64,000 nucleotides of DNA from Siphonodentalium dalli. Its lineage: Eukaryota > Mollusca > Scaphopoda > Gadilida > Siphonodentaliidae. Where the stretch lies: contig CP136062.1 of the NCBI GenBank assembly GCA_032622095.1, positions 17,611,739 through 17,675,738 on the forward strand, given 5' to 3'. Position numbers and translations under genes: made by a program. Below are positions 1 through 64,000 of this stretch, piece after piece; position 1 is the first letter of the stretch, and every line of letters starts with the position of its first letter. Below the pieces are notes generated by a model. It saw nothing but the letters and a program-made list of their open reading frames with translations, made no database searches and was not told where the DNA came from.

Positions 1-16425
<16,425 letters not shown>

Positions 16426-16714
16426 CTGAAACAAACAAAAAAACAAACAAACTGAATATTGATGCAAGTGTTGGAATTTTGAAAATAAGTGTATTATATC
16501 AAATCAAATTAAATTCAACCTATTTGATTCACTGCTAAATGACATGACGGCATGGGCCATGAAGTTATGGCCATTTTCCAGTGGAAAAATAAAATGGGAA
16601 TACATTGTATCACAGAAATCTGAAAACTGACTGTTACCATTCACAATCCAGAAACATAATCATACACTGTTTCAAACTTCCGAGATACAATGGTTCCAAC
16701 GCACCAATGTCTGA
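16426..16714. other. Spacer between the small exon and the satellite
   Basis: AT-rich; starts with an AAAC-rich tract that is the polypyrimidine tract of the exon on the other strand. I looked for an upstream exon on the minus strand ending in phase 1 and saw none. A possible ATG with a weak donor near 16,637 is in the wrong phase. Confidence 0.5.
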
Positions 16715-17286
16715 GTTGTGAATAATTACCGACTGCCAGTGTGCTGAAATAGGCCTGTACTAAGTCCATTGTGAGTAGGTCTGTACGCAGTACAGTGTGA
16801 ATAATGACCGACTGCTCGTGTGCTGAAGTAAGTCTGTACTCAGTATGGTGTGAATAATGACCGACTGCTCGTGTGCTGAAGTAAGTCTGTACTCAGTACG
16901 GTGTGAATAATGACCGACTGCTCGTGTGCTGAAGTAAGTCTATACTCAGTACGGTGTGAATAATGACCGACTGCTCGTGTGCTGAAGTAAGTCTATACTC
17001 AGTACGGTGTGAATAATGACTGACTGCTCGTGTGCTGAAGTAAGTCTGTACGCAGTACGGTGTGAATAATGACCGACTGCTCGTGTGCTGAAGTAAGTCT
17101 GTACGCAGTACGGTGTGAATAATGACCGACTGCTCGTGTGCTGAAGTAACTCTGTACTCAGTATGGTGTGAATAATGACCGAATGCTCGTGTGCTGAAGT
17201 AAGTCTGTACTCAGTACAGTGTGAATAATGACCGACTGCTCGTGTGCTGAAGTAACTCTGTACTCAGTATGGTGTGAATAATGACC

Positions 17287-19330
17287 GACTGCTCGTGTGC
17301 TGAAGTAACTCTGTACTCAGTACGGTGTGAATAATGACCGACTGCTCGTGTGCTGAAGTAAGTCTGTACTCAGTACAGTGTGAATAATGACCGACTGCTC
17401 GTGTGCTGAAGTAAGTCTGTACTCAGTATGGTGTGAATAATGACCGACTGCTCGTGTGCTGAAGTAAGTCTGTACTCAGTATGGTGTGAATAATGACCGA
17501 CTGCTCGTGTGCTGAAGTAAGTCTGTACTCAGTATGGTGTGAATAATGACTGACTGCTCGTGTGCTGAAGTAAGTCTGTACTCAGTACAGTGTGAATAAT
17601 GACCGACTGCTCGTGTGCTGAAGTAAGTCTGTACTCAGTACGGTGTGAATCATGACTGACTGCTCGTGTGCTGAAGTAAGTCTGTACTCAGTATGGTGTG
17701 AATAATGACCGACTGCTCGTGTGCTGAAGTAAGTCTGTACGCAGTACGGTGTGAATAATGACTGACTGCTCGTGTGCTGAAGTAAGTCTGTACTCAGTAG
17801 AGTGTGAATAATGACTGACTGCTCGTGTGCTGAAGTAAGTCTGTACTCAGTATGGTGTGAATAATGACCGACTGCTCGTGTGCTGAAGTAAGTCTGTACG
17901 CAGTACAGTGTGAATAATGACCGACTGCTCGTGTGCTGAAGTAGGTCTGTACTCAGTACGGTGTGAATAATGACCGACTGCTCGTGTGCTGAAGTAAGTC
18001 TGTACTCAGTACGGTGTGAATAATGACCGACTGCTCGTGTGCTGAAGTAAGTCTGTACGCAGTACAGTGTGAATAATGACTGACTGCTCGTGTGCTGAAG
18101 TAAGTCTGTACTCAGTATGGTGTGAATAATGACCGACTGCTCGTGTGCTGAAGTAAGTCTGTACTCAGTACGGTGTGAATAATGACCGACTGCTCGTGTG
18201 CTGAAGTAAGTCTGTACGCAGTACAGTGTGAATAATGACTGACTGCTCGTGTGCTGATGTAAGTCTGTACTCAGTACAGTGTGAATAATGACTGACTGCT
18301 CGTGTGCTGAAGTAAGTCTGTACTCAGTATGGTGTGAATAATGACTGACTGCTCGTGTGCTGAAGTAACTCTGTACTCAGTACGGTGTGAATAATGACCG
18401 ACTGCTCGTGTGCTGAAGTAAGTCTGTACTCAGTACAGTGTGAATAATGACCGACTGCTCGTGTGCTGAAGTAAGTCTGTACTCAGTATGGTGTGAATAA
18501 TGACCGACTGCTCGTGTGCTGAAGTAAGTCTGTACTCAGTATGGTGTGAATAATGACCGACTGCTCGTGTGCTGAAGTAAGTCTGTACTCAGTATGGTGT
18601 GAATAATGACTGACTGCTCGTGTGCTGAAGTAAGTCTGTACTCAGTACAGTGTGAATAATGACCGACTGCTCGTGTGCTGAAGTAAGTCTGTACTCAGTA
18701 CGGTGTGAATCATGACTGACTGCTCGTGTGCTGAAGTAAGTCTGTACTCAGTATGGTGTGAATAATGACCGACTGCTCGTGTGCTGAAGTAAGTCTGTAC
18801 GCAGTACGGTGTGAATAATGACTGACTGCTCGTGTGCTGAAGTAAGTCTGTACTCAGTAGAGTGTGAATAATGACTGACTGCTCGTGTGCTGAAGTAAGT
18901 CTGTACTCAGTATGGTGTGAATAATGACCGACTGCTCGTGTGCTGAAGTAAGTCTGTACGCAGTACAGTGTGAATAATGACCGACTGCTCGTGTGCTGAA
19001 GTAGGTCTGTACTCAGTACGGTGTGAATAATGACCGACTGCTCGTGTGCTGAAGTAAGTCTGTACTCAGTACGGTGTGAATAATGACCGACTGCTCGTGT
19101 GCTGAAGTAAGTCTGTACGCAGTACAGTGTGAATAATGACTGACTGCTCGTGTGCTGAAGTAAGTCTGTACTCAGTATGGTGTGAATAATGACCGACTGC
19201 TCGTGTGCTGAAGTAAGTCTGTACTCAGTACGGTGTGAATAATGACCGACTGCTCGTGTGCTGAAGTAAGTCTGTACGCAGTACAGTGTGAATAATGACT
19301 GACTGCTCGTGTGCTGATGTAAGTCTGTAC
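17287..19330. repeat. Higher-order repeat in the satellite, offset 1,060 bp (20 monomers)
   Basis: The variant pattern of 17,287-18,270 recurs at 18,347-19,330. Rare markers confirm the offset: CAGTAGAG at 17,794 and 18,854, GCTGATGTAAG near 18,253 and 19,313, and GTAACTCTG at 17,305 and 18,365. Patterns part after 19,330 and before 17,287. Confidence 0.93.
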
Positions 19331-19819
19331 TCAGTACAGTGTGAATAATGACCGACTGCTCGTGTGCTGAAGTAAGTCTGTACTCAGTACGGTGTGAATA
19401 ATGACTGACTGCTCGTGTGCTGAAGTAAGTCTGTACTCAGTACAGTGTGAATAATGACTGACTGCTCGTGTGCTGAAGTAAGTCTGTACTCAGTACGGTG
19501 TGAATAATGACCGACTGCTCGTGTGCTGAAGTAAGTCTGTACTCAGTATGGTGTGAATAATAACTGACTGCTCGTGTGCTGAAGTAAGTCTGTACTCAGT
19601 ATGGTGTGAATAATGACTGACTGCTCGTGTGCTGAAGTAAGTCTGTACTCAGTATGGTGTGAATAATGACTGACTGCTCGTGTGCTGAAGTAAGTCTGTA
19701 CTCAGTACAGTGTGAATCATGACTGACTGCTCGTGTGCTGAAGTAAGTCTGTACTCAGTATGGTGTGAATAATGACCGACTGCTCGTGTGCTGAAGTAAG
19801 TCTGTACGCAGTACAGTGT

Positions 19820-22800
19820 GAATAATGACCGACTGCTCGTGTGCTGAAGTAAGTCTGTACTCAGTACAGTGTGAATAATGACCGACTGCTCGTGTGCTGA
19901 AGTAAGTCTGTAAGCAGTACAGTGTGAATAATTACCGACTGCTCGTGTGCTGAAGTAACTCTGTACTCAGTATGGTGTGAATAATGACCGACTGCTCGTG
20001 TGCTGAAGTAAGTCTGTACTCAGTATGTTGTGAATAATGACCGACTGCTCGTGTGCTGAAGTAACTCTGTACTCAGTATGGTGTGAATAATGACCGACTG
20101 CTCGTGTGCTGAAGTAAGTCTGTACTCAGTACAGTGTGAATAATGACCGACTGCTCGTGTGCTGAAGTAAGTCTGTACTCAGTACAGTGTGAATAATGAC
20201 CGACTGCTCGTGTGCTGAAGTAAGTCTATACTCAGTATGGTGTGAATAATGACCGACTGCTCGTGTGCTGAAGTAACTCTGTACTCAGTATGGTGTGAAT
20301 AATTACCGACTGCTCGTTTGCTGAAGTAAGTCTGTACTCAGTATGGTGTGAATAAAGACCGACTGCTCGTGTGCTGAAGTAAGTCTGTACTCAGTATGGT
20401 GTGAATAATGACTGACTGCTCGTGTGCTGAAGTAACTCTGTACTCAGTACAGTGTGAATAATGACCGACTGCTCGTGTGCTGAAGTAAGTCTGTACTCAG
20501 TACAGTGTGAATAATGACTGACTGCTCGTGTGCTGAAGTAAGTCTGTACTCAGTATGGTGTGAATAATGACTGACTGCTCGTGTGCTGAAGTAACTCTGT
20601 ACTCAGTATGGTGTGAATAATGACCGACTGCTCGTGTGCTGAAGTAAGTCTATACTCAGTACAGTGTGAATAATGACTGACTGCTCGTGTGCTGAAGTAA
20701 GTCTGTACTCAGTATGGTGTGAATAATGACTGACTGCTCGTGTGCTGAAGTAACTCTGTACTCAGTACGGTGTGAATAATGACCGACTGCTCGTGTGCTG
20801 AAGTAAGTCTGTACTCAGTACAGTGTGAATAATGACCGACTGCTCGTGTGCTGAAGTAAGTCTGTACTCAGTATGGTGTGAATAATGACCGACTGCTCGT
20901 GTGCTGAAGTAAGTCTGTACTCAGTATGGTGTGAATAATGACCGACTGCTCGTGTGCTGAAGTAAGTCTGTACTCAGTACGGTGTGAATCATGACTGACT
21001 GCTCGTGTGCTGAAGTAAGTCTGTACTCAGTATGGTGTGAATAATGACCGACTGCTCGTGTGCTGAAGTAAGTCTGTACGCAGTACGGTGTGAATAATGA
21101 CTGACTGCTCGTGTGCTGAAGTAGGTCTGTACTCAGTATGGTGTGAATAATGACCGACTGCTCGTGTGCTGAAGTAGGTCTGTACTCAGTACGATGTGAA
21201 TAATGACTGACTGCTCGTGTGCTGAAGTAAGTCTGTACGCAGTACAGTGTGAATAATGACTGACTGCTCGTGTGCTGAAGTAAGTCTGTACTCAGTACAG
21301 TGTGAATAATGACTGACTGCTCGTGTGCTGAAGTAAGTCTGTACTCAGTATGGTGTGAATAATGACCGACTGCTCGTGTGCTGAAGTAAGTCTGTACGCA
21401 GTACAGTGTGAATAATGACCGACAGCTCGTGTGCTGAAGTAGGTCTGTACTCAGTACGGTGTGAATAATGACCGACTGCTCGAGTGCTGAAGTAAGTCTG
21501 TACTCAGTACGGTGTGAATAATGACCGACTGCTCGTGTGCTGAAGTAAGTCTGTACGCAGTACAGTGTGAATAATGACCGACTGCTCGTGTGCTGAAGTA
21601 ACTCTGTACTCAGTACGGTGTGAATAATGACCGACTGCTCGTGTGCTGAAGTAAGTCTGTACTCAGTACAGTGTGAATAATGACCGACTGCTCGTGTGCT
21701 GAAGTAAGTCTGTACTCAGTATGGTGTGAATAATGACCGACTGCTCGTGTGCTGAAGTAAGTCTGTACTCAGTATGGTGTGAATAATGACCGACTGCTCG
21801 TGTGCTGAAGTAAGTCTGTACTCAGTACGGTGTGAATCATGACTGACTGCTCGTGTGCTGAAGTAAGTCTGTACTCAGTATGGTGTGAATAATGACCGAC
21901 TGCTCGTGTGCTGAAGTAAGTCTGTACTCAGTACAGTGTGAATAATGACTGACTGCTCGTGTGCTGAAGTAAGTCTGTACTCAGTATGGTGTGAATAATG
22001 ACCGACTGCTCGTGTGCTGAAGTAAGTCTGTACGCAGTACAGTGTGAATAATGACCGACAGCTCGTGTGCTGAAGTAGGTCTGTACTCAGTACGGTGTGA
22101 ATAATGACCGACTGCTCGAGTGCTGAAGTAAGTCTGTACTCAGTACGGTGTGAATAATGACCGACTGCTCGTGTGCTGAAGTAAGTCTGTACGCAGTACA
22201 GTGTGAATAATGACCGACTGCTCGTGTGCTGAAGTAAGTCTGTACTCAGTATGGTGTGAATAATGACCGACTGCTCGTGTGCTGAAGTAAGTCTGTACTC
22301 AGTACGGTGTGAATAATGACCGACTGCTCGTGTGCTGAAGTAAGTCTGTACGCAGTACAGTGTGAATAATGACCGACTGCTCGTGTGCTGAAGTAAGTCT
22401 GTACTCAGTATGGTGTGAATAATGACCGACTGCTCGTGTGCTGAAGTAAGTCTGTACTCAGTACAGTGTGAATAATGACCGACTGCTCGTGTGCTGAAGT
22501 AAGTCTGTACTCAGTACGGTGTGAATCATGACTGACTGCTCGTGTGCTGAAGTAAGTCTGTACTCAGTATGGTGTGAATAATGACCGACTGCTCGTGTGC
22601 TGAAGTAAGTCTGTACGCAGTATGGTGTGAATAATGACTGACTGCTCGTGTGCTGAAGTAAGTCTGTACCGGTACTCAGTACAGTGTGAATAATGACTGA
22701 CTGCTCGTGTGCTGAAGTAAGTCTGTACTCAGTATGGTGTGAATAATGACCGACTGCTCGTGTGCTGAAGTAAGTCTGTACGCAGTACGGTGTGAATAAT

Positions 22801-25800
22801 GACTGACTGCTCGTGTGCTGAAGTAAGTCTGTACTCAGTACAGTGTGAATAATGACCGACTGCTCGTGTGCTGAAGTAGGTCTGTACTCAGTACGGTGTG
22901 AATAATGACCGACTGCTCGTTTGCTGAAGTAAGTCTGTACTCAGTACGGTGTGAATAATGACCGACTGCTCGTGTGCTGAAGTAAGTCTGTACGCAGTAC
23001 AGTGTGAATAATGACCGACTGCTCGTGTGCTGAAGTAAGTCTGTACTCAGTATGGTGTGAATAATGACCGACTGCTCGTGTGCTGAAGTAAGTCTGTACT
23101 CAGTACAGTGTGAATAATGACCGACTGCTCGTGTGCTGAAGTAAGTCTGTACGCAGTACAGTGTGAATAATGACCGACTGCTCGTGTGCTGAAGTAAGTC
23201 TGTACTCAGTACGGTGTGAATAATGACCGACTGCTCGTGTGCTGAAGTAAGTCTGTACGCAGTACAGTGTGAATAATGACCGACTGCTCGTGTGCTGAAG
23301 TAAGTCTGTACTCAGTATGGTGTGAATAATGACCGACTGCTCGTGTGCTGAAGTAAGTCTGTACTCAGTACAGTGTGAATAATGACCGACTGCTCGTGTG
23401 CTGAAGTAAGTCTGTACTCAGTACGGTGTGAATCATGACTGACTGCTCGTGTGCTGAAGTAAGTCTGTACTCAGTATGGTGTGAATAATGACCGACTGCT
23501 CGTGTGCTGAAGTAAGTCTGTACGCAGTACGGTGTGAATAATGACTGACTGCTCGTGTGCTGAAGTAAGTCTGTACCGGTACTCAGTACAGTGTGAATAA
23601 TGACAGACTGCTCGTGTGCTGAAGTAAGTCTGTACTCAGTATGGTGTGAATAATGACCGACTGCTCGTGTGCTGAAGTAAGTCTGTACGCAGTACAGTGT
23701 GAATAATGACCGACTGCTCGTGTGCTGAAGTAGGTCTGTACTCAGTACGGTGTGAATAATGACCGACTGCTCGTGTGCTGAAGTAAGTCTGTACTCAGTA
23801 CGGTGTGAATAATGACCGACTGCTCGTGTGCTGAAGTAAGTCTGTACGCAGTACAGTGTGAATAATGACCGACTGCTCGTGTGCTGAAGTAAGTCTGTAC
23901 TCAGTATGGTGTGAATAATGACCGACTGCTCGTGTGCTGAAGTAAGTCTGTACTCAGTACAGTGTGAATAATGACCGACTGCTCGTGTGCTGAAGTAAGT
24001 CTGTACGCAGTACAGTGTGAATAATGACCGACTGCTCGTGTGCTGAAGTAAGTCTGTACTCAGTACGGTGTGAATAATGACCGACTGCTCGTGTGCTGAA
24101 GTAAGTCTGTACGCAGTACAGTGTGAATAAAGACTGACTGCTCGTGTGCTGATGTAAGTCTGTACTCAGTACAGTGTGAATAATGACCGACTGCTCGTGT
24201 GCTGAAGTAAGTCTGTACTCAGTACGGTGTGAATAATGACTGACTGCTCGTGTGCTGAAGTAAGTCTGTACTCAGTACAGTGTGAATAATGACTGACTGC
24301 TCGTGTGCTGATGTAAGTCTGTACTCAGTACAGTGTGAATAATGACCGACTGCTCGTGTGCTGAAGTAAGTCTGTACTCAGTACGGTGTGAATAATGACC
24401 GACTGCTCGTGTGCTGAAGTAAGTCTGTACTCAGTATGGTGTGAATAATGACTGACTGCTCGTGTGCTGAAGTAAGTCTGTACTCAGTATGGTGTGAATA
24501 ATGACTGACTGCTCGTGTGCTGAAGTAAGTCTGTACTCAGTATGGTGTGAATAATGACTGACTGCTCGTGTGCTGAAGTAAGTCTGTACTCAGTACAGTG
24601 TGAATCATGACTGACTGCTCGTGTGCTGAAGTAAGTCTGTACTCAGTATGGTGTGAATAATGACTGACTGCTCGTGTGCTGAAGTAAGTCTGTACTCAGT
24701 ACAGTGTGAATCATGACTGACTGCTCGTGTGCTGAAGTAAGTCTGTACTCAGTATGGTGTGAATAATGACCGACTGCTCGTGTGCTGAAGTAAGTCTGTA
24801 CTCAGTACAGTGTGAATAATGACCGACTGCTCGTGTGCTGAAGTAAGTCTGTAAGCAGTACAGTGTGAATAATTACCGACTGCTCGTGTGCTGAAGTAAC
24901 TCTGTACTCAGTATGGTGTGAATAATGACCGACTGCTCGTGTGCTGAAGTAAGTCTGTACTCAGTATGTTGTGAATAATGACCGACTGCTCGTGTGCTGA
25001 AGTAACTCTGTACTCAGTATGGTGTGAATAATGACCGACTGCTCGTGTGCTGAAGTAAGTCTGTACTCAGTACAGTGTGAATAATGACCGACTGCTCGTG
25101 TGCTGAAGTAAGTCTGTACTCAGTACAGTGTGAATAATGACCGACTGCTCGTGTGCTGAAGTAAGTCTATACTCAGTATGGTGTGAATAATGACCGACTG
25201 CTCGTGTGCTGAAGTAACTCTGTACTCAGTATGGTGTGAATAATTACCGACTGCTCGTTTGCTGAAGTAAGTCTGTACTCAGTATGGTGTGAATAAAGAC
25301 CGACTGCTCGTGTGCTGAAGTAAGTCTGTACTCAGTATGGTGTGAATAATGACTGACTGCTCGTGTGCTGAAGTAACTCTGTACTCAGTACAGTGTGAAT
25401 AATGACCGACTGCTCGTGTGCTGAAGTAAGTCTGTACTCAGTACAGTGTGAATAATGACTGACTGCTCGTGTGCTGAAGTAAGTCTGTACTCAGTATGGT
25501 GTGAATAATGACTGACTGCTCGTGTGCTGAAGTAACTCTGTACTCAGTATGGTGTGAATAATGACCGACTGCTCGTGTGCTGAAGTAAGTCTATACTCAG
25601 TACAGTGTGAATAATGACTGACTGCTCGTGTGCTGAAGTAAGTCTGTACTCAGTATGGTGTGAATAATGACTGACTGCTCGTGTGCTGAAGTAACTCTGT
25701 ACTCAGTACGGTGTGAATAATGACCGACTGCTCGTGTGCTGAAGTAAGTCTGTACTCAGTACAGTGTGAATAATGACCGACTGCTCGTGTGCTGAAGTAA

Positions 25801-28800
25801 GTCTGTACTCAGTATGGTGTGAATAATGACCGACTGCTCGTGTGCTGAAGTAAGTCTGTACTCAGTATGGTGTGAATAATGACCGACTGCTCGTGTGCTG
25901 AAGTAAGTCTGTACTCAGTACGGTGTGAATCATGACTGACTGCTCGTGTGCTGAAGTAAGTCTGTACTCAGTATGGTGTGAATAATGACCGACTGCTCGT
26001 GTGCTGAAGTAAGTCTGTACGCAGTACGGTGTGAATAATGACTGACTGCTCGTGTGCTGAAGTAGGTCTGTACTCAGTATGGTGTGAATAATGACCGACT
26101 GCTCGTGTGCTGAAGTAGGTCTGTACTCAGTACGATGTGAATAATGACTGACTGCTCGTGTGCTGAAGTAAGTCTGTACGCAGTACAGTGTGAATAATGA
26201 CTGACTGCTCGTGTGCTGAAGTAAGTCTGTACTCAGTACAGTGTGAATAATGACTGACTGCTCGTGTGCTGAAGTAAGTCTGTACTCAGTATGGTGTGAA
26301 TAATGACCGACTGCTCGTGTGCTGAAGTAAGTCTGTACGCAGTACAGTGTGAATAATGACCGACAGCTCGTGTGCTGAAGTAGGTCTGTACTCAGTACGG
26401 TGTGAATAATGACCGACTGCTCGAGTGCTGAAGTAAGTCTGTACTCAGTACGGTGTGAATAATGACCGACTGCTCGTGTGCTGAAGTAAGTCTGTACGCA
26501 GTACAGTGTGAATAATGACCGACTGCTCGTGTGCTGAAGTAACTCTGTACTCAGTACGGTGTGAATAATGACCGACTGCTCGTGTGCTGAAGTAAGTCTG
26601 TACTCAGTACAGTGTGAATAATGACCGACTGCTCGTGTGCTGAAGTAAGTCTGTACTCAGTATGGTGTGAATAATGACCGACTGCTCGTGTGCTGAAGTA
26701 AGTCTGTACTCAGTATGGTGTGAATAATGACCGACTGCTCGTGTGCTGAAGTAAGTCTGTACTCAGTACGGTGTGAATCATGACTGACTGCTCGTGTGCT
26801 GAAGTAAGTCTGTACTCAGTATGGTGTGAATAATGACCGACTGCTCGTGTGCTGAAGTAAGTCTGTACTCAGTACAGTGTGAATAATGACTGACTGCTCG
26901 TGTGCTGAAGTAAGTCTGTACTCAGTATGGTGTGAATAATGACCGACTGCTCGTGTGCTGAAGTAAGTCTGTACGCAGTACAGTGTGAATAATGACCGAC
27001 AGCTCGTGTGCTGAAGTAGGTCTGTACTCAGTACGGTGTGAATAATGACCGACTGCTCGAGTGCTGAAGTAAGTCTGTACTCAGTACGGTGTGAATAATG
27101 ACCGACTGCTCGTGTGCTGAAGTAAGTCTGTACGCAGTACAGTGTGAATAATGACCGACTGCTCGTGTGCTGAAGTAAGTCTGTACTCAGTATGGTGTGA
27201 ATAATGACCGACTGCTCGTGTGCTGAAGTAAGTCTGTACTCAGTACGGTGTGAATAATGACCGACTGCTCGTGTGCTGAAGTAAGTCTGTACGCAGTACA
27301 GTGTGAATAATGACCGACTGCTCGTGTGCTGAAGTAAGTCTGTACTCAGTATGGTGTGAATAATGACCGACTGCTCGTGTGCTGAAGTAAGTCTGTACTC
27401 AGTACAGTGTGAATAATGACCGACTGCTCGTGTGCTGAAGTAAGTCTGTACTCAGTACGGTGTGAATCATGACTGACTGCTCGTGTGCTGAAGTAAGTCT
27501 GTACTCAGTATGGTGTGAATAATGACCGACTGCTCGTGTGCTGAAGTAAGTCTGTACGCAGTATGGTGTGAATAATGACTGACTGCTCGTGTGCTGAAGT
27601 AAGTCTGTACCGGTACTCAGTACAGTGTGAATAATGACTGACTGCTCGTGTGCTGAAGTAAGTCTGTACTCAGTATGGTGTGAATAATGACCGACTGCTC
27701 GTGTGCTGAAGTAAGTCTGTACGCAGTACGGTGTGAATAATGACTGACTGCTCGTGTGCTGAAGTAAGTCTGTACTCAGTACAGTGTGAATAATGACCGA
27801 CTGCTCGTGTGCTGAAGTAGGTCTGTACTCAGTACGGTGTGAATAATGACCGACTGCTCGTTTGCTGAAGTAAGTCTGTACTCAGTGCGGTGTGAATAAT
27901 GACCGACTGCTCGTGTGCTGAAGTAAGTCTGTACGCAGTACAGTGTGAATAATGACCGACTGCTCGTGTGCTGAAGTAAGTCTGTACTCAGTATGGTGTG
28001 AATAATGACCGACTGCTCGTGTGCTGAAGTAAGTCTGTACTCAGTACAGTGTGAATAATGACCGACTGCTCGTGTGCTGAAGTAAGTCTGTACGCAGTAC
28101 AGTGTGAATAATGACCGACTGCTCGTGTGCTGAAGTAAGTCTGTACTCAGTACGGTGTGAATAATGACCGACTGCTCGTGTGCTGAAGTAAGTCTGTACG
28201 CAGTACAGTGTGAATAATGACCGACTGCTCGTGTGCTGAAGTAAGTCTGTACTCAGTATGGTGTGAATAATGACCGACTGCTCGTGTGCTGAAGTAAGTC
28301 TGTACTCAGTACAGTGTGAATAATGACCGACTGCTCGTGTGCTGAAGTAAGTCTGTACTCAGTACGGTGTGAATCATGACTGACTGCTCGTGTGCTGAAG
28401 TAAGTCTGTACTCAGTATGGTGTGAATAATGACCGACTGCTCGTGTGCTGAAGTAAGTCTGTACGCAGTACGGTGTGAATAATGACTGACTGCTCGTGTG
28501 CTGAAGTAAGTCTGTACCGGTACTCAGTACAGTGTGAATAATGACTGACTGCTCGTGTGCTGAAGTAAGTCTGTACTCAGTATGGTGTGAATAATGACCG
28601 ACTGCTCGTGTGCTGAAGTAAGTCTGTACGCAGTACAGTGTGAATAATGACCGACTGCTCGTGTGCTGAAGTAGGTCTGTACTCAGTACGGTGTGAATAA
28701 TGACCGACTGCTCGTGTGCTGAAGTAAGTCTGTACTCAGTACGGTGTGAATAATGACCGACTGCTCGTGTGCTGAAGTAAGTCTGTACGCAGTACAGTGT

Positions 28801-32600: not shown

Positions 32601-32999
32601 TCAGTATGGTGTGAATAATGACTGACTGCTCGTGTGCTGAAGTAAGTCTGTACGCAGTATGGTGTGAATAATGACTGACTGCTCGTGTGCTGAAGTAAGT
32701 CTGTACTCAGTATGGTGTGAATAATGACTGACTGCTTGTGTGCTGAAGTAAGTCTGTACTCAGTATGGTGTGAATAATGACCGACTGCTCGTGTGCTGAA
32801 GTAAGTCTGTACTCAGTACAGTGTGAATAATGACCGACTGCTCGTGTGCTGAAGTAAGTCTGTACTCAGTACAGTGTGAATAATGACCGACTGCTCGTGT
32901 GCTGAAGTAAGTCTGTACTCAGTACAGTGTGAATAATGACCGACTGCTCGTGTGCTGAAGTAAGTCTGTACTCAGTACAGTGTGAATAATGACCGACTG

Positions 33000-35900: not shown

Positions 35901-36200
35901 ATAATGACTGACTGCTCGTGTGCTGAAGTAAGTCTGTACTCAGTACGGTGTGAATAATGACCGACTGCTCGTGTGCTGAAGTAGGTCTGTACTCAGTATG
36001 GTGTGAATAATGACTGACTGCTCGTGTGCTGAAGTAAGTCTGTACTCAGTACAGTGTGAATAATGACTGACTGCTTGTGTGCTGAAGTAAGTCTGTACTC
36101 AGTATGGTGTGAATCATGACTGACTGCTCGTGTGCTGAAGTAAGTCTGTACTCAGTATGGTGTGAATAATGACTGACTGCTTGTGTGCTGAAGTAAGTCT
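33000..36200. repeat. Higher-order repeat, offset 1,484 bp (28 monomers), with a partial third copy
   Basis: GCTTAAGTAAG occurs at 33,220 and 34,704, and the TATGG...GAATCATGAC variant near 33,781 and 35,265, both 1,484 bp apart. A third GAATCATGAC, at 36,111, is 848 bp (16 units) further. CTTGTGTG variants are frequent here. Confidence 0.85.
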
Positions 36201-51500: not shown

Positions 51501-54500
51501 GTGCTGAAGTAGGTCTGTACTCAGTATGGTGTGAATAATGACCGACTGCTCGTGTGCTGAAGTAAGTCTGTACGCAGTACAGTGTGAATAATGACTGACT
51601 GCTCGTGTGCTGAAGTAAGTCTGTACTCAGTATGGTGTGAATAATGACTGACTGCTTGTGTGCTGAAGTAAGTCTGTACTCAGTATGGTGTGAATAATGA
51701 CTGACTGCTCGTGTGCTGAAGTAAGTCTGTACTCAGTATGGTGTGAATCATGACTGACTGCTCGTGTGCTGAAGTAAGTCTGTACTCAGTATGGTGTGAA
51801 TAATGACTGACTGCTCGTGTGCTGAAGTAAGTCTGTACTCAGTATGGTGTGAATAATGACTGACTGCTCGTGTGCTGAAGTAAGTCTGTACTCAGTATGG
51901 TGTGAATCATGACTGACTGCTCGTGTGCTGAAGTAGGTCTGTACTCAGTATGGTGTGAATAATGACTGACTGCTCGTGTGCTGAAGTAAGTCTGTACGCA
52001 GTACAGTGTGAATAATGACTGACTGCTCGTGTGCTGAAGTAAGTCTGTACTCAGTACGGTGTGAATAATGACTGACTGCTCGTGTGCTGAAGTAAGTCTG
52101 TATGCAGTATTGTGTGAATAATGACCGACTGCTCGTGTGCTGAAGTAAGTCTGTACACAGTACAGTGTGAATAATGACTGACTGCTCGTGTGCTGAAGTA
52201 AGTCTGTACTCAGTACGGTGTGAATAATGACCGACTGCTCGTGTGCTGAAGTAAGTCTGTACTCAGTATGGTGTGAATAATGACTGACTGCTCGTGTGCT
52301 GAAGTAAGTCTGTACTCAGTATGGTGTGAATAATGACTGACTGCTCGTGTGCTGAAGTAAGTCTGTACTCAGTATGGTGTGAATAATGACTGACTGCTCG
52401 TGTGCTGAAGTAAGTCTGTACTCAGTACGGTGTGAATAATGACTGACTGCTCGTGTGCTGAAGTAAGTCTGTACTCAGTATGGTGTGAATAATGACTGAC
52501 TGCTTGTGTGCTGAAGTAAGTCTGTACTCAGTATGGTGTGAATAATGACTGACTAATCGTGTGCTGAAGTAAGTCTGTACGCAGTACAGTGTGAATAATG
52601 ACCGACTGCTCGTGTGCTGAAGTAAGTCTGTACTCAGTATGGTGTGAATAATGACTGACTGCTCGTGTGCTGAAGTAAGTCTGTACTCAGTACGGTGTGA
52701 ATAATGACCGACTGCTCGTGTGCTGAAGTAAGTCTGTACTCAGTATGGTGTGAATAATGACTGACTGCTTGTGTGCTGAAGTAAGTCTGTACTCAGTATG
52801 GTGTGAATAATGACTGACTGCTCGTGTGCTGAAGTAAGTCTGTACTCAGTACAGTGTGAATAATGACCGACTGCTCGTGTGCTGAAGTAAGTCTGTACTC
52901 AGTACAGTGTGAATAATGACTGACTGCTCGTGTGCTGAAGTAAGTCTGTACTCAGTATGGTGTGAATAATGACTGACTGCTCGTGTGCTGAAGTAAGTCT
53001 GTACTCAGTACAGTGTGAATAATGACTGACTAATCGTGTGCTGAAGTAAGTCTGTACTCAGTATGGTGTGAATCATGACTGACTGCTCGTGTGCTGAAGT
53101 AAGTCTGTACTCAGTACGGTGTGAATAATGACTGACTGCTCGTGTGCTGAAGTAAGTCTGTACTCAGTACGGTGTGAATAATGACTGACTGCTCGTGTGC
53201 TGAAGTAAGTCTGTACTCAGTATGGTGTGAATAATGACTGACTGCTTGTGTGCTGAAGTAAGTCTGTACTCAGTATGGTGTGAATAATGACCGACTGCTC
53301 GTGTGCTGAAGTAAGTCTGTACTCAGTACAGTGTGAATAATGACCGACTGCTCGTGTGCTGAAGTAAGTCTGTACTCAGTACAGTGTGAATAATGACAGA
53401 CTGCTCGTGTGCTGAAGTAAGTCTGTACTCAGTACAGTGTGAATAATGACCGACTGCTCATGTGCTGAAGTAAGTCTGTACTCAGTACAGTGTGAATAAT
53501 GACCGACTGCTCGTGTGCTGAAGTAAGTCTGTACTCAGTACGGTGTGAATAATGACCGACTGCTCGTGTGCTGAAGTAGGTCTGTACTCAGTATGGTGTG
53601 AATAATGACCGACTGCTCGTGTGCTGAAGTAAGTCTGTACGCAGTACAGTGTGAATAATGACTGACTGCTCGTGTGCTGAAGTAAGTCTGTACTCAGTAT
53701 GGTGTGAATAATGACTGACTGCTCGTGTGCTGAAGTAAGTCTGTACTCAGTATGGTGTGAATAATGACTGACTGCTCGTGTGCTGAAGTAAGTCTGTACT
53801 CAGTATGGTGTGAATAATGACTGACTGCTCGTGTGCTGAAGTAAGTCTGTACTCAGTATGGTGTGAATAATGACTGACTGCTCGTGTGCTGAAGTAAGTC
53901 TGTACTCAGTATGGTGTGAATAATGACTGACTGCTCGTGTGCTGAAGTAAGTCTGTACTCAGTATGGTGTGAATAATGACTGACTAATCGTGTGCTGAAG
54001 TAAGTCTGTACTCAGTATGGTGTGAATAATGACTGACTGCTCGTGTGCTGAAGTAAGTCTGTACTCAGTACGGTGTGAATAATGACTGACTGCTCGTGTG
54101 CTGAAGTAAGTCTGTACTCAGTACGGTGTGAATAATGACTGACTGCTCGTGTGCTGAAGTAAGTCTGTACTCAGTATGGTGTGAATAATGACTGACTGCT
54201 TGTGTGCTGAAGTAAGTCTGTACTCAGTACAGTGTGAATAATGACCGACTGCTCGTGTGCTGAAGTAAGTCTGTACTCAGTACAGTGTGAATAATGACCG
54301 ACTGCTCGTGTGCTGAAGTAAGTCTGTACTCAGTACAGTGTGAATAATGACAGACTGCTCGTGTGCTGAAGTAAGTCTGTACTCAGTACAGTGTGAATAA
54401 TGACCGACTGCTCATGTGCTGAAGTAAGTCTGTACTCAGTACAGTGTGAATAATGACCGACTGCTCGTGTGCTGAAGTAGGTCTGTACTCAGTACGGTGT

Positions 54501-55100
54501 GAATAATGACCGACTGCTCGTGTGCTGAAGTAGGTCTGTACTCAGTATGGTGTGAATAATGACCGACTGCTCGTGTGCTGAAGTAAGTCTGTACGCAGTA
54601 CAGTGTGAATAATGACTGACTGCTCGTGTGCTGAAGTAAGTCTGTACTCAGTATGGTGTGAATAATGACTGACTGCTTGTGTGCTGAAGTAAGTCTGTAC
54701 TCAGTATGGTGTGAATAATGACTGACTGCTCGTGTGCTGAAGTAAGTCTGTACTCAGTATGGTGTGAATAATGACTGACTGCTCGTGTGCTGAAGTAAGT
54801 CTGTACTCAGTATGGTGTGAATCATGACTGACTGCTCGTGTGCTGAAGTAGGTCTGTACTCAGTATGGTGTGAATAATGACTGACTGCTCGTGTGCTGAA
54901 GTAAGTCTGTACGCAGTACAGTGTGAATAATGACTGACTGCTCGTGTGCTGAAGTAAGTCTGTACTCAGTACGGTGTGAATAATGACTGACTGCTCGTGT
55001 GCTGAAGTAAGTCTGTACTCAGTATTGTGTGAATAATGACCGACTGCTCGTGTGCTGAAGTAAGTCTGTACACAGTACAGTGTGAATAATGACTGACTGC
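42600..55100. repeat. Mosaic higher-order repeat region with block lengths of 39, 44, 55 and 62 monomers
   Basis: The rare variant CAGTATTGTG lies at 44,421, 46,753, 48,819, 52,105 and 55,020. Steps are 2,332, 2,066 (39 units minus the 1-bp loss), 3,286 and 2,915 bp, all whole units. GACAGACTG lies at 42,637, 43,644, 45,923, 47,990, 50,321, 51,328, 53,395 and 54,349, again whole-unit steps. The neighbouring CACAGTACAG variant travels with the first marker. Confidence 0.88.
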
Positions 55101-56159
55101 TCGTGTGCTGAAGTAAGTCTGTACTCAGTACGGTGTGAATAATGACCGACTGCTCGTGTGCTGAAGTAAGTCTGTACTCAGTATGGTGTGAATAATGACT
55201 GACTGCTCGTGTGCTGAAGTAAGTCTGTACTCAGTATGGTGTGAATAATGACTGACTGCTCGTGTGCTGAAGTAAGTCTGTACTCAGTATGGTGTGAATA
55301 ATGACTGACTGCTCGTGTGCTGAAGTAAGTCTGTACTCAGTACGGTGTGAATAATGACTGACTGCTCGTGTGCTGAAGTAAGTCTGTACTCAGTATGGTG
55401 TGAATAATGACTGACTGCTTGTGTGCTGAAGTAAGTCTGTACTCAGTATGGTGTGAATAATGACTGACTAATCGTGTGCTGAAGTAAGTCTGTACGCAGT
55501 ACAGTGTGAATAATGACCGACTGCTCGTGTGCTGAAGTAAGTCTGTACTCAGTATGGTGTGAATAATGACTGACTGCTCGTGTGCTGAAGTAAGTCTGTA
55601 CTCAGTACGGTGTGAATAATGACCGACTGCTCGTGTGCTGAAGTAAGTCTGTACTCAGTATGGTGTGAATAATGACTGACTGCTTGTGTGCTGAAGTAAG
55701 TCTGTACTCAGTATGGTGTGAATAATGACTGACTGCTCGTGTGCTGAAGTAAGTCTGTACTCAGTACAGTGTGAATAATGACCGACTGCTCGTGTGCTGA
55801 AGTAAGTCTGTACTCAGTACAGTGTGAATAATGACTGACTGCTCGTGTGCTGAAGTAAGTCTGTACTCAGTATGGTGTGAATAATGACTGACTGCTCGTG
55901 TGCTGAAGTAAGTCTGTACTCAGTACAGTGTGAATAATGACTGACTAATCGTGTGCTGAAGTAAGTCTGTACTCAGTATGGTGTGAATCATGACTGACTG
56001 CTCGTGTGCTGAAGTAAGTCTGTACTCAGTACAGTGTGAATAATGACTGACTAATCGTGTGCTGAAGTAAGTCTGTACTCAGTATGGTGTAAATAATGAC
56101 TGACTGCTCGTGAGCTGAAGTAAGTCTGTACTCAGTACGGTGTGAATAATGACTGACTG

Positions 56160-59100
56160 CTCGTGTGCTGAAGTAAGTCTGTACTCAGTATGGTGTGAAT
56201 AATGACTGGCTGCTCGTGTGCTGAAGTAAGTCTGTACTCAGTACAGTGTGAATAATGACCGACTGCTCGTGTGCTGAAGTAGGTCTGTACTCAGTACGGT
56301 GTGAATAATGACCGACTGCTCGTGTGCTGAAGTAGGTCTGTACTCAGTATGGTGTGAATAATGACCGACTGCTCATGTGCTGAAGTAAGTCTGTACGCAG
56401 TACAGTGTGAATAATGACTGACTGCTCGTGTGCTGAAGTAAGTCTGTACTCAGTATGGTGTGAATAATGACTGACTGCTCGTGTGCTGAAGTAAGTCTGT
56501 ACTCAGTATGGTGTGAATAATGACTGACTGCTTGTGTGCTGAAGTAAGTCTGTACTCAGTATGGTGTGAATAATGACTGACTAATCGTGTGCTGAAGTAA
56601 GTCTGTACGCAGTACAGTGTGAATAATGACTGACTGCTCGTGTGCTGAAGTAGGTCTGTACTCAGTACAGTGTGAATAATGACTGACTGCTCGTGTGCTG
56701 AAGTACGTCTGTACTCAGTACAGTGTGAATAATGACTGACTGCTCGTGTGCTGAAGTAAGTCTGTACTCAGTACAGTGTGAATAATGACCGACTGCTCGT
56801 GTGCTGAAGTAAGTCTGTACTCAGTACAGTGTGAATAATGACCGACTGCTCGTGTGCTGAAGTAAGTCTGTACTCAGTATGGTGTGAATAATGACTGACT
56901 GCTCGTGTGCTGAAGTAAGTCTGTACGCAGTACAGTGTGAATAATGACGACTGCTCGTGTGCTGAAGTAGGTCTGTACTCAGTATGGTGTGAATAATGAC
57001 CGACTGCTCGTGTGCTGAAGTAAGTCTGTACGCAGTACAGTGTGAATAATGACTGACTGCTCGTGTGCTGAAGTAACTCTGTACTCAGTACGGTGTGAAT
57101 AATGACCGACTGCTCGTGTGCTGAAGTAAGTCTGTACTCAGTATGGTGTGAATAATGACTGACTAATCGTGTGCTGAAGTAAGTCTGTACGCAGTACAGT
57201 GTGAATAATGACCGACTGCTCGTGTGCTGAAGTAAGTCTGTACTCAGTATGGTGTGAATAATGACTGACTGCTCGTGTGCTGAAGTAAGTCTGTACTCAG
57301 TATGGTGTGAATAATGACTGACTGCTCGTGTGCTGAAGTAAGTCTGTACTCAGTATGGTGTGAATAATGACTGACTGCTCGTGTGCTGAAGTAAGTCTGT
57401 ACTCAGTACGGTGTGAATAATGACTGACTGCTCGTGTGCTGAAGTAAGTCTGTACTCAGTATGGTGTGAATAATGACTGACTGCTTGTGTGCTGAAGTAA
57501 GTCTGTACTCAGTATGGTGTGAATAATGACTGACTAATCGTGTGCTGAAGTAAGTCTGTACGCAGTACAGTGTGAATAATGACCGACTGCTCGTGTGCTG
57601 AAGTAAGTCTGTACTCAGTATGGTGTGAATAATGACTGACTGCTCGTGTGCTGAAGTAAGTCTGTACTCAGTACGGTGTGAATAATGACCGACTGCTCGT
57701 GTGCTGAAGTAAGTCTGTACTCAGTATGGTGTGAATAATGACTGACTGCTTGTGTGCTGAAGTAAGTCTGTACTCAGTATGGTGTGAATAATGACTGACT
57801 GCTCGTGTGCTGAAGTAAGTCTGTACTCAGTACAGTGTGAATAATGACCGACTGCTCGTGTGCTGAAGTAAGTCTGTACTCAGTACAGTGTGAATAATGA
57901 CTGACTGCTCGTGTGCTGAAGTAAGTCTGTACTCAGTATGGTGTGAATAATGACTGACTGCTCGTGTGCTGAAGTAAGTCTGTACTCAGTACAGTGTGAA
58001 TAATGACTGACTAATCGTGTGCTGAAGTAAGTCTGTACTCAGTATGGTGTGAATCATGACTGACTGCTCGTGTGCTGAAGTAAGTCTGTACTCAGTACAG
58101 TGTGAATAATGACTGACTAATCGGTGTGCTGAAGTAAGTCTGTACTCAGTATGGTGTGAATAATGACTGACTGCTCGTGTGCTGAAGTAAGTCTGTACTC
58201 AGTACGGTGTGAATAATGACTGACTGCTCGTGTGCTGAAGTAAGTCTGTACTCAGTATGGTGTGAATAATGACTGGCTGCTCGTGTGCTGAAGTAAGTCT
58301 GTACTCAGTACAGTGTGAATAATGACCGACTGCTCGTGTGCTGAAGTAGGTCTGTACTCAGTACGGTGTGAATAATGACCGACTGCTCGTGTGCTGAAGT
58401 AGGTCTGTACTCAGTATGGTGTGAATAATGACCGACTGCTCGTGTGCTGAAGTAAGTCTGTACGCAGTACAGTGTGAATAATGACTGACTGCTAGTGTGC
58501 TGAAGTAAGTCTGTACTCAGTATGGTGTGAATAATGACTGACTGCTCGTGTGCTGAAGTAAGTCTGTACTCAGTATGGTGTGAATAATGACTGACTGCTT
58601 GTGTGCTGAAGTAAGTCTGTACTCAGTATGGTGTGAATAATGACTGACTAATCGTGTGCTGAAGTAAGTCTGTACGCAGTACGGTGTGAATAATGACCGA
58701 CTGCTCGTATGCTGAAGTAAGTCTGTACTCAGTACGGTGTGAATAATGACCGACTGCTCGTGTGCTGAAGTAAGTCTGTACTCAGTACGGTGTGAATAAT
58801 GACCGACTGCTCGTGTGCTGAAGTAAGTCTGTACTCAGTACGGTGTGAATAATGACTGACTGCTCGTGTGCTGAAGTAAGTCTGTACTCAGTACGGTGTG
58901 AATAATGACTGACTGCTCGTGTGCTGAAGTAAGTCTGTATGCAGTACAGTGTGAATAATGACCGACTGCTCGTGTGCTGAAGTAAGTCTGTACTCAGTAC
59001 GGTGTGAATAATGACTGACTGCTCGTGTGCTGAAGTAAGTCTGTATGCAGTACAGTGTGAATAATGACCGACTGCTCGTGTGCTGAAGTAAGTCTGTACG

Positions 59101-62100
59101 CAGTACAGTGTGAATAATGACTGACTGCTCGTGTGCTGAAGTAAGTCTGTACTCAGTATGGTGTGAATAATGACCGACTGCTCGTGTGCTGAAGTAAGTC
59201 TGTACTCAGTACAGTGTGAATAATGACTGACTGCTCGTGTGCTGAAGTAAGTCTGTACTCAGTACGGTGTGAATAATGACCGACTGCTCGTGTGCTGAAG
59301 TAAGTCTGTACTCAGTACGGTGTGAATAATGACTGACTGCTCGTGTGCTGAAGTAAGTCTGTACTCAGTATGGTGTGAATAATGACTGACTGCTTGTGTG
59401 CTGAAGTAAGTCTGTACTCAGTACAGTGTGAATAATGACCGACTGCTCGTGTGCTGAAGTAAGTCTGTACGCAGTACAGTGTGAATAATGACCGACAGCT
59501 CGTGTGCTGAAGTAAGTCTGTACTCAGTATGGTGTGAATAATGACTGACTGCTCGTGTGCTGAAGTAAGTCTGTACTCAGTACAGTGTGAATAATGACCG
59601 ACTGCTCGTGTGCTGAAGTAAGTCTGTACGCAGTACAGTGTGAATAATGACCGACTGCTCGTGTGCTGAAGTAAGTCTGTACTCAGTATGGTGTGAATAA
59701 TGACTGACTGCTCGTGTGCTGAAGTAAGTCTGTACTCAGTACAGTGTGAATAATGACCGACTGCTCGTGTGCTGAAGTAAGTCTGTACTCAGTATGGTGT
59801 GAATAATGACTGACTGCTCGTGTGCTGAAGTAAGTCTGTACGCAGTACAGTGTGAATAATGACCGACTGCTCGTGTGCTGAAGTAGGTCTGTACTCAGTA
59901 CAGTGTGAATAATGACCGACTGCTCGTGTGCTGAAGTAAGTCTGTACTCAGTACAGTGTGAATAATGACCGACTGCTCGTGTGCTGAAGTAAGTCTGTAC
60001 TCAGTACGGTGTGAATAATGACTGACTGCTCGTGTGCTGAAGTAAGTCTGTACTCAGTACAGTGTGAATAATGACCGACTGCTCGTGTGATGAAGTAGGT
60101 CTGTACTCAGTACGGTGTGAATAATGACCGACTGCTCGTCTGCTGAAGTAAGTCTGTACTCAGTATGGTGTGAATAATGACCGACTGCTCGTGTGCTGAA
60201 GTAAGTCTGTACTCAGTATGGTGTGAATAATGACTGACTGCTCGTGTGCTGAAGTAAGTCTGTACTCAGTATGGTGTGAATAATGACCGACTGCTCGTGT
60301 GCTGAAGTAAGTCTGTACTCAGTACAGTGTGAATAATGACTGACTGCTCGTGTGCTGAAGTAAGTCTGTACTCAGTATGGTGTGAATAATGACTGACTGC
60401 TCGTGTGCTGAAGTAAGTCTGTACTCAGTACAGTGTGAATAATGACTGACTGCTCGTGTGCTGAAGTAAGTCTGTACTCAGTATGGTGTGAATAATGACT
60501 GACTGCTCGTGTGCTGAAGTACGTCTGTACTCAGTATGGTGTGAATAATGACAGACTGCTCGTGTGCTGAAGTAAGTCTGTACTCAGTATGGTGTGAATA
60601 ATGACTGACTGCTCGTGTGCTGAAGTAAGTCTGTACTCAGTATGGTGTGAATAATGACTGACTGCTCGTGTGCTGAAGTAAGTCTGTACTCAGTATGGTG
60701 TGAATAATGACTGACTAATCGTGTGCTGAAGTAAGTCTGTACTCAGTATGGTGTGAATAATGACTGACTGCTCGTGTGCTGAAGTAAGTCTGTACTCAGT
60801 ACGGTGTGAATAATGACTGACTGCTCGTGTGCTGAAGTAAGTCTGTACTCAGTACGGTGTGAATAATGACTGACTGCTCGTGTGCTGAAGTAAGTCTGTA
60901 CTCAGTATGGTGTGAATAATGACTGACTGCTTGTGTGCTGAAGTAAGTCTGTACTCAGTATGGTGTGAATAATGACCGACTGCTCGTGTGCTGAAGTAAG
61001 TCTGTACTCAGTACAGTGTGAATAATGACCGACTGCTCGTGTGCTGAAGTAAGTCTGTACTCAGTACAGTGTGAATAATGACAGATTGCTCGTGTGCTGA
61101 AGTAAGTCTGTACTCAGTACAGTGTGAATAATGACCGACTGCTCATGTGCTGAAGTAAGTCTGTACTCAGTACAGTGTGAATAATGACCGACTGCTCGTG
61201 TGCTGAAGTAAGTCTGTACTCAGTACGGTGTGAATAATGACCGACTGCTCGTGTGCTGAAGTAGGTCTGTACTCAGTATGGTGTGAATAATGACCGACTG
61301 CTCGTGTGCTGAAGTAAGTCTGTACGCAGTACAGTGTGAATAATGACTGACTGCTCGTGTGCTGAAGTAAGTCTGTACTCAGTATGGTGTGAATAATGAC
61401 TGACTGCTCGTGTGCTGAAGTAAGTCTGTACTCAGTATGGTGTGAATAATGACTGGCTGCTCGTGTGCTGAAGTAAGTCTGTACTCAGTACAGTGTGAAT
61501 AATGACCGACTGCTCGTGTGCTGAAGTAGGTCTGTACTCAGTACGGTGTGAATAATGACCGACTGCTCGTGTGCTGAAGTAGGTCTGTACTCAGTATGGT
61601 GTGAATAATGACCGACTGCTCATGTGCTGAAGTAAGTCTGTACGCAGTACAGTGTGAATAATGACTGACTGCTCGTGTGCTGAAGTAAGTCTGTACTCAG
61701 TATGGTGTGAATAATGACTGACTGCTCGTGTGCTGAAGTAAGTCTGTACTCAGTATGGTGTGAATAATGACTGACTGCTTGTGTGCTGAAGTAAGTCTGT
61801 ACTCAGTATGGTGTGAATAATGACTGACTAATCGTGTGCTGAAGTAAGTCTGTACGCAGTACAGTGTGAATAATGACTGACTGCTCGTGTGCTGAAGTAG
61901 GTCTGTACTCAGTACAGTGTGAATAATGACTGACTGCTCGTGTGCTGAAGTACGTCTGTACTCAGTACAGTGTGAATAATGACTGACTGCTCGTGTGCTG
62001 AAGTAAGTCTGTACTCAGTACAGTGTGAATAATGACCGACTGCTCGTGTGCTGAAGTAAGTCTGTACTCAGTACAGTGTGAATAATGACCGACTGCTCGT

Positions 62101-64000
62101 GTGCTGAAGTAAGTCTGTACTCAGTATGGTGTGAATAATGACTGACTGCTCGTGTGCTGAAGTAAGTCTGTACGCAGTACAGTGTGAATAATGACGACTG
62201 CTCGTGTGCTGAAGTAGGTCTGTACTCAGTATGGTGTGAATAATGACCGACTGCTCGTGTGCTGAAGTAAGTCTGTACGCAGTACAGTGTGAATAATGAC
62301 TGACTGCTCGTGTGCTGAAGTAACTCTGTACTCAGTACGGTGTGAATAATGACCGACTGCTCGTGTGCTGAAGTAAGTCTGTACTCAGTATGGTGTGAAT
62401 AATGACTGACTAATCGTGTGCTGAAGTAAGTCTGTACGCAGTACAGTGTGAATAATGACCGACTGCTCGTGTGCTGAAGTAAGTCTGTACTCAGTATGGT
62501 GTGAATAATGACTGACTGCTCGTGTGCTGAAGTAAGTCTGTACTCAGTATGGTGTGAATAATGACTGACTGCTCGTGTGCTGAAGTAAGTCTGTACTCAG
62601 TATGGTGTGAATAATGACTGACTGCTCGTGTGCTGAAGTAAGTCTGTACTCAGTACGGTGTGAATAATGACTGACTGCTCGTGTGCTGAAGTAAGTCTGT
62701 ACTCAGTATGGTGTGAATAATGACTGACTGCTTGTGTGCTGAAGTAAGTCTGTACTCAGTATGGTGTGAATAATGACTGACTAATCGTGTGCTGAAGTAA
62801 GTCTGTACGCAGTACAGTGTGAATAATGACCGACTGCTCGTGTGCTGAAGTAAGTCTGTACTCAGTATGGTGTGAATAATGACTGACTGCTCGTGTGCTG
62901 AAGTAAGTCTGTACTCAGTACGGTGTGAATAATGACCGACTGCTCGTGTGCTGAAGTAAGTCTGTACTCAGTATGGTGTGAATAATGACTGACTGCTTGT
63001 GTGCTGAAGTAAGTCTGTACTCAGTATGGTGTGAATAATGACTGACTGCTCGTGTGCTGAAGTAAGTCTGTACTCAGTACAGTGTGAATAATGACCGACT
63101 GCTCGTGTGCTGAAGTAAGTCTGTACTCAGTACAGTGTGAATAATGACTGACTGCTCGTGTGCTGAAGTAAGTCTGTACTCAGTATGGTGTGAATAATGA
63201 CTGACTGCTCGTGTGCTGAAGTAAGTCTGTACTCAGTACAGTGTGAATAATGACTGACTAATCGTGTGCTGAAGTAAGTCTGTACTCAGTATGGTGTGAA
63301 TCATGACTGACTGCTCGTGTGCTGAAGTAAGTCTGTACTCAGTACAGTGTGAATAATGACTGACTAATCGTGTGCTGAAGTAAGTCTGTACTCAGTATGG
63401 TGTGAATAATGACTGACTGCTCGTGTGCTGAAGTAAGTCTGTACTCAGTACGGTGTGAATAATGACTGACTGCTCGTGTGCTGAAGTAAGTCTGTACTCA
63501 GTATGGTGTGAATAATGACTGGCTGCTCGTGTGCTGAAGTAAGTCTGTACTCAGTACAGTGTGAATAATGACCGACTGCTCGTGTGCTGAAGTAGGTCTG
63601 TACTCAGTACGGTGTGAATAATGACCGACTGCTCGTGTGCTGAAGTAGGTCTGTACTCAGTATGGTGTGAATAATGACCGACTGCTCGTGTGCTGAAGTA
63701 AGTCTGTACGCAGTACAGTGTGAATAATGACTGACTGCTCGTGTGCTGAAGTAAGTCTGTACTCAGTATGGTGTGAATAATGACTGACTGCTCGTGTGCT
63801 GAAGTAAGTCTGTACTCAGTATGGTGTGAATAATGACTGACTGCTTGTGTGCTGAAGTAAGTCTGTACTCAGTATGGTGTGAATAATGACTGACTAATCG
63901 TGTGCTGAAGTAAGTCTGTACGCAGTACGGTGTGAATAATGACCGACTGCTCGTATGCTGAAGTAAGTCTGTACTCAGTACGGTGTGAATAATGACCGAC
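56160..64000. repeat. Tandem duplication in the satellite, offset 5,247 bp (99 monomers), second copy cut by the window edge
   Basis: Patterns from about 56,160 recur from about 61,407. GACTGGCTG at 56,204 and 61,451, the CTCATGTG variant near 56,371 and 61,618, GTACGTCTG at 56,705 and 61,952, and the shared 1-bp loss all give 5,247. A 1-bp gain (AATCGGTG near 58,124) exists only in the first copy, so it arose after the duplication. Confidence 0.92.

Follow-up and report, generated by a model that had tools for sequence, protein, structure and literature searches.

A 53-bp satellite, most likely grown from one copy of a short transposon-like element, in what appears to be a 108.5-kb intron of a scaphopod macrodomain-Deltex gene

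How does a satellite array come to stand between two coding exons of the same gene, and what would it do there? The question is raised by a stretch of 64,000 nucleotides from the mollusc Siphonodentalium dalli (C2:17,611,739-17,675,738, C2 being contig CP136062.1; hereafter the window), in which a 53-bp satellite begins just upstream of the exons of a macrodomain-RING-Deltex gene and runs to the window's edge. Within an assembly of 2.23 Gb in 9 contigs, the array and the paralogues of the gene were followed beyond the window. The account that we favour, and regard as very probable when taken as a whole, can be told in five steps. One copy of a dispersed element resembling a miniature inverted-repeat transposable element (MITE) would have inserted into an intron of the gene; a 53-bp internal segment would then have been amplified in tandem by repeated multi-unit duplication, through unequal exchange or replication slippage. 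With the array already present, the gene would have been duplicated into copies A, B and C, and each array would since have expanded, contracted and gained insertions independently. The array-filled intron would be transcribed and spliced out, joining the first coding exon to the exon at 16,361-16,425.

The features of gene A, the copy in the window, and of the DNA upstream of it are given below; positions without a contig or stretch name are those of the window, and L001 is C2:17,731,000-17,737,000.

1,063-1,311, minus strand: last coding exon, Deltex C-terminal domain and stop codon (phase and domain search)
4,345-4,868, minus strand: exon with RING finger and start of the Deltex C-terminal domain (phase and domain search)
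5,815-6,543, minus strand: exon with the end of macrodomain 1 and macrodomain 2 (phase and domain search)
10,460-11,594, minus strand: exon with the first part of macrodomain 1 (phase and domain search)
16,361-16,425, minus strand: 65-nt coding exon, second coding exon (splice borders and phase; present in all five gene copies)
16,426-64,000 in the window, C2:17,628,164-17,736,688 in full, minus strand: putative intron of 108,525 bp from the first coding exon to the 65-nt exon (gene anatomy)
16,514-16,773, plus strand: candidate left arm of the MITE-like element (16,514-16,714) with a diverged edge unit (16,715-16,773) (shuffle test and comparison with paralogue D)
16,774-64,000 in the window, plus strand: 53-bp satellite array in one orientation, continuing to C2:17,735,063 (Tandem Repeats Finder (TRF), core search and fetched stretches)
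L001:4,065-4,092: candidate right end of the element, about 28 bp beyond the array (shuffle test)
C2:17,736,860-17,736,689 (L001:5,861-5,690), minus strand: candidate first coding exon, 1.6 kb past the far end of the array

The five window exons share the minus strand and their phases are mutually consistent; the borders of the last two coding exons (4,868-4,345 and 1,311-1,063) were set by eye from the sequence. In Pfam, two stretches match the Macro domain (PF01661, E 7.1e-46), followed by a RING finger (PF13923, E 9.9e-11) and the Deltex C-terminal (DTC) domain (PF18102, E 4.7e-40), while the nearest entries in PDB are PARP14 macrodomains (3vfq), DTX3L (3pg6, E 7e-34) and the RING plus DTC of DTX2 (6y22). 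By these domains the gene can be classed as a macrodomain-Deltex gene, as a sequence-only reading of the window had proposed, and as DTX3L-like. It resembles DTX3L in its DTC domain, DTX2 in the pairing of RING and DTC, and PARP14 in its macrodomains. Unlike DTX3L/Deltex and PARP14/PARP9, it would combine RING and DTC with two macrodomains in a single chain, behind some 300 N-terminal amino acids without a recognised domain.

Besides A, a protein search of the species' own genome returned four close paralogues, along with fragments and relatives that are more distant:

C2:17.35-17.42 Mb, inverted: paralogue B
C2:17.89-17.95 Mb: paralogue C
C2:18.03-18.05 Mb: paralogue D
C2:14.42-14.45 Mb: paralogue E

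The 65-nt exon, bordered as ttcag/AT...AAT/gtaagt (a slash marks a splice border), joins in phase to exon 10,460-11,594 and has the same borders in all five copies, A to E. The earlier claim that it begins inside a codon is borne out by its phase and acceptor. The further claim, that another coding exon must lie beyond the array, is supported by a candidate found there. This candidate is open, begins with ATG downstream of tattttcag/CACATATAGG, and ends in AGCAG/gtataa with a phase-1 donor that fits exon 16,361-16,425. A protein search with this far exon (nine matches at E<=10, 10 candidates scored) placed it at four sites genome-wide, one apiece in A, B, C and E and always on the gene's strand, the other five matches being the 65-nt exon. 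All 57 amino acids are identical in A, B and C, and 70% of the 57 in E. Its splice sites do not differ between A, B and C, and E keeps them too, the acceptor as ttttcag/CACATATAGG-ATG and the donor as AGCAG or GGCAG/gtataa. In B and C, as in A, the far exon stands past a 53-bp array within the corresponding intron, and in copy E, which lacks this satellite, it stands 14.6 kb upstream of exon 2.

By gene anatomy, the satellite DNA of gene A thus lies between two coding exons of one gene, and the proposal that the array sits inside an intron stands, with a splice from the far exon to 16,425 that we infer from these borders. This intron would measure 108,525 bp in A, 56,679 in B, 46,050 in C and 14,560 in E; in A, the array span including its insertions makes up 98% of it. 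Joined in this way, the six exons give an open coding sequence of 2,874 nt with one terminal stop, encoding 957 amino acids in the order macro-macro-RING-DTC. An N-terminal fold resembling an RNA recognition motif, suspected by eye, was set aside after Pfam and PDB sequence searches without a match.

The array had been described from the window as at least 47 kb of about 890 units in identical orientation, which is correct as a lower bound. Within the window, TRF reports period 53, 890.7 copies and 95% matches over 16,774-64,000, and a fuzzy search for the core, begun at 16,701 and carried to the window end, finds 891 units forward and 0 reverse. The array extends to C2:17,735,063, more than twice the extent visible in the window, and holds 1,945 same-strand units in about 106.5 kb including two insertions, with 0 reverse units and 0 N. 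It consists of three blocks, separated by gaps of 1,131 and 2,337 bp. The second gap contains an element with internal repeats of about 160 bp. The first (C2:17,686,195-17,687,326, stretch L017) holds an insertion of 1.1 kb that, as read by eye, resembles a foldback element, with 16-bp tandem repeats in inverted orientation at its ends and perhaps a target duplication of 8 bp.

The exact 21-bp core of the unit, GACTGCTCGTGTGCTGAAGTA, occurs genome-wide 1,877 times forward and 941 times reverse. The fetched stretches hold 1,647 copies in A and 230 in C, together 1,877 forward, and 941 reverse in B; because the genome counts equal the array counts, every exact copy falls within the arrays of A, B and C. 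With up to 2 mismatches, the corresponding genome counts are 2,593 and 1,455, against 2,196 in A plus C and 1,031 in B. By subtraction, 397 + 424 = 821 sites with 1-2 mismatches lie outside the three arrays.

These dispersed sites provide the clearest view of where the array came from. The first eight listed of the 821 were inspected, all lying on contig C1 and sharing the same single-base change. Each holds a single unit, surrounded by sequence that the copies share, so that the unit has its homologue in the interior of a dispersed element. The sequence flanking the array resembles that element on both sides, more weakly on the right. For the left arm (16,514-16,714, edge unit excluded), six of the eight copies (L031-L035, L037) scored above the best of 40 shuffles. 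The right end (32 bases, L001:4,065-4,096) exceeded its shuffles in six of eight, mostly narrowly and at best with 20 vs 12 in L035; with 20 bases of the last unit added it did so in all eight, a score that comes partly from the unit itself. The element's ends, TTAACCTCTT and AAGAGGTTAA, are inverted complements. With a tolerance of up to 4 errors, four of the eight copies showed the 5' end and seven the 3' end; the 5' end of the intron copy needed up to 5. Paralogue D provides a view of the locus without the element: it aligns with A as far as window position 16,513 and resumes at L001:4,097, and the element is not between these points. The sequence that D has there matched none of the eight dispersed sites better than E 0.64. 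Since arms stand beside the array, the left one clear and the right one short, and the inspected copies elsewhere hold one unit, the array is most likely the internal expansion of a single MITE-like copy. The TTAA might suggest a piggyBac-like family.

If the arrays of A, B and C descend from one array, they have changed far more rapidly than the genes around them. Outside the exons, A matches B at 99.21% of 5,312 ungapped aligned bases and C at 99.11% of 6,195, figures from which unaligned stretches, chiefly window 6,668-10,428, drop out. The arrays of A, B and C hold 1,945, 1,034 and 254 units, respectively, so that length varies between paralogues, where the sequence-only reading had envisaged variation between individuals. 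Despite flanks about 99.2% identical, those of A and B differ twofold in length and can hardly be aligned, being colinear only at the exon-side edge, where 8 of the first 10 units are identical. Their longest shared run of identical consecutive units is 8 (4-5 in five shuffles of B), and no identical run of 5 or more was found for A-C or B-C. Within arrays, such runs reach 58 in A and 57 in B, which indicates recent duplication inside each. The best 40-unit window between A and B is 97.45% identical vs 96.70% in shuffled arrays (99.61% vs 99.22% with CpG sites masked), and windows within A and within B reach 100%. No uniform higher-order repeat emerged at lags under 400 units, where the best lag gave exact-match rates of only 0.15-0.31 (blocks A1 and A2, B and C2); irregular multi-unit duplications are present instead. 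The element with 160-bp repeats lies close to the far end of array A and close to the near end of array C, at the same point of the unit, and B has no such gap. Its shifted place would follow if units were gained and lost to both sides of a landmark that the arrays share. The three arrays have diverged far faster than their flanks.

Array C has features of its own. The sequence adjoining its far end is rearranged, and an insertion of 24.7 kb (C2:17,908,749-17,933,478, stretches L027-L029), made of 82-bp and 162-bp arrays followed by both in inverted form, is a giant palindrome of satellites.

The units themselves vary mainly at CpG sites. Across 3,194 of the 3,225 excised units, those of exactly 53 bases, positions 21-22 read CG in 744, TG in 1,503, CA in 920 and TA in 1, vs 437 expected. 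Of the 1.89 differences that on average separate a unit from the consensus, 1.24 fall at positions 21, 22 and 37, all of them CpG sites. CpG decay was considered as a sign of gene-body methylation and rejected: the observed/expected ratio is 0.69 in the first array block, 0.72 in the gene part and 0.78 in the upstream flank of the far exon, values so close that the array is not singled out. Likewise, within the span of array A, GTRAGT has 0 occurrences on the gene-sense strand and 1,675 on the opposite one, and this bias is not evidence of selection on splice motifs because one insertion event would fix it. The gene-sense (minus) strand of array A also contains stop-to-stop stretches of up to 322 amino acids, several of them of 264, vs at most 68 on the other strand. 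A coding array is not supported: the unit length of 53 is not divisible by 3, stops interrupt the consensus frame (read in the first units only), and the long stop-free stretches repeat at equal length, as copied blocks would give. They are probably chance variants spread by block duplication.

Several observations weigh against the account as a whole. In the left-arm comparison, copies L036 and L038 did not exceed the shuffles; the right end is short, and L032 and L037 did not exceed theirs. In paralogue D, the first exon was not found within the 24 kb fetched upstream of exon 2, and a gap of 100 N begins at C2:18,065,425, 17.5 kb upstream of that exon. The array length comes from one assembly. 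For the joined N-terminal 298 amino acids, no Pfam match passed the cut-off and the PDB gave none with an E below 1.8. Finally, between A and E the far exon has a ratio of nonsynonymous to synonymous rates (dN/dS) of 0.73, from 19.3 nonsynonymous and 6.7 synonymous changes; with so few changes, and the test being weak, purifying selection on it is unsupported.

The last two points also favour the best surviving alternative, in which the array would occupy the 5' flank, the functional transcript starting downstream of it, and the far exon would be a relic or belong to another transcript. A methionine at residue 123 of the window exons' joint product, ahead of the macrodomains, could start such a shorter protein. 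Against this, exon 16,361-16,425 has a good acceptor and a mid-codon start in all five copies, and in each of A, B, C and E the far exon has a start codon, an open frame in the right phase and splice sites that are conserved. We consider a position in the 5' flank unlikely.

Another alternative, that the arrays are selected for and that a long repeat-filled intron delays or gates the expression of the gene family, draws on a second repeat found in D and E. No 53-bp core was found within 4 errors in the stretches fetched for these two paralogues. In E, a 27-bp minisatellite lies between the far exon and the 65-nt exon (stretch L014), and in D it lies upstream of the 65-nt exon (L003, L004, L015), presumably in the same intron. 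Its exact 27-mer occurs genome-wide 223 times forward and 0 reverse, and because D holds 146 and E 77, which add up to 223, the exact unit is found only there. Aligned with the 53-bp unit it scores 10, whereas 200 shuffles reach up to 12, and the two repeats thus lack detectable similarity. Two dissimilar repeats, each with exact units only in the intron of this gene family, would both have grown there, upstream of the 65-nt exon, and intron length ranges from 14.6 to 108.5 kb across four paralogues. However, a sevenfold spread between paralogues means that no length has been kept, and other minisatellites are frequent in and around the gene. A selected use of the array as a delay is possible but unsupported, and we judge it distinctly improbable. 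We would give as little credit to a broader version, in which the intron is a recurrent nursery of locus-private arrays, with at least two dissimilar repeats arising independently, and length differences of 15-108 kb act as an evolvable timer that gives similar immune-type genes differing delays or outputs. Weakest of all, and very improbable, is an assembly artefact that would have given the array a wrong length or put it wrongly between the exons: mis-sizing of long tandem arrays is common in assemblies, but the fetched A, B and C stretches contain 0 N, the three loci share an equal distance from array to 65-nt exon and the same sequence beyond, except at C's rearranged far end, A and C carry insertions of their own, and A and B carry long internal duplications.

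The gene family has other peculiarities. Copy B may be a broken gene: its next match resembling the RING exon lies 65 kb downstream, is split and contains a stop, and there is no nearby last-exon match among the matches listed. The macrodomain block of A (window 5,815-6,668 and 10,428-11,100) is about 90-96% identical to B and C in 300-base windows, the other windows compared being at 97-100%, and B and C are 98.8% identical over 1,531 bases including part of the macrodomain 1 exon. Gene A looks mosaic, as might result from gene conversion or diversifying exchange. Upstream, D and E share about 10 kb at 99.7-100% identity, though they lie 3.6 Mb apart on one contig; the locus would have been duplicated either very recently or in the assembly. 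D also has a 32-bp array. Small minisatellites are frequent within the window (TRF). One of 39 bp, with about 12 copies, lies in an intron of the gene (7,732-8,218; TRF), and 98- and 105-bp tandem repeats at 3,210-3,574 and 4,185-4,372, in the intron downstream of the RING exon, resemble copies of the RING exon's own end, donor site and intron start, as read by eye.

Satellite-filled introns and satellites born from MITEs are already known, and on this evidence it is their combination that is new. The Y genes kl-3 and kl-5 of Drosophila have gigantic satellite-containing introns that are transcribed and need RNA-binding proteins for expression (PMC6508621). As in these genes, the putative intron of gene A is almost wholly satellite and would have to be transcribed for an mRNA to be made. 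Unlike their megabases of simple satellites in Y genes, the present intron, at 108,525 bp or about 0.1 Mb, falls short of megabase scale, is built from a 53-bp unit and belongs to a duplicated gene cluster. Tandem repeats inside MITEs that expand to satellites, such as Xstir and miDNA4 in Xenopus, are described in a review (PMC12628747); in Drosophila virilis, the foldback element Tetris feeds a satellite through its TIR-220, with amplification linked to beta-heterochromatin (PMC4079207). With these systems the locus shares tandem units drawn from inside a short non-autonomous transposon, whose ends can still flank the array. It differs from them in that a single copy has seemingly undergone an expansion of about 2,000-fold in one intron, and each of the eight inspected copies elsewhere holds one unit. 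In the parts of the literature consulted, no paper was found that describes one MITE copy expanded to about 100 kb within an intron.

For the gene, the most likely effect of the array is passive: it would make the transcription unit longer and have little if any selected function. RNA polymerase elongates at 2-4 kb per minute, so that the intron of A would add about half an hour to one hour, vs 4-7 minutes for that of E. The consequences for transcription time, splicing and recombination that the sequence-only reading had envisaged are speculation. The best reading is of a tolerated, fast-evolving, transposon-derived satellite in an intron that would be transcribed.

One locus may therefore display the likely life of a satellite, from the parent family and the arm remnants to the expanded array and its three diverged gene copies. 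It also offers a natural experiment, with four paralogues whose introns of 14.6, 46.1, 56.7 and 108.5 kb would lie between the same two exons, a set well suited to the question of whether intron length alone alters the timing of expression or splicing.

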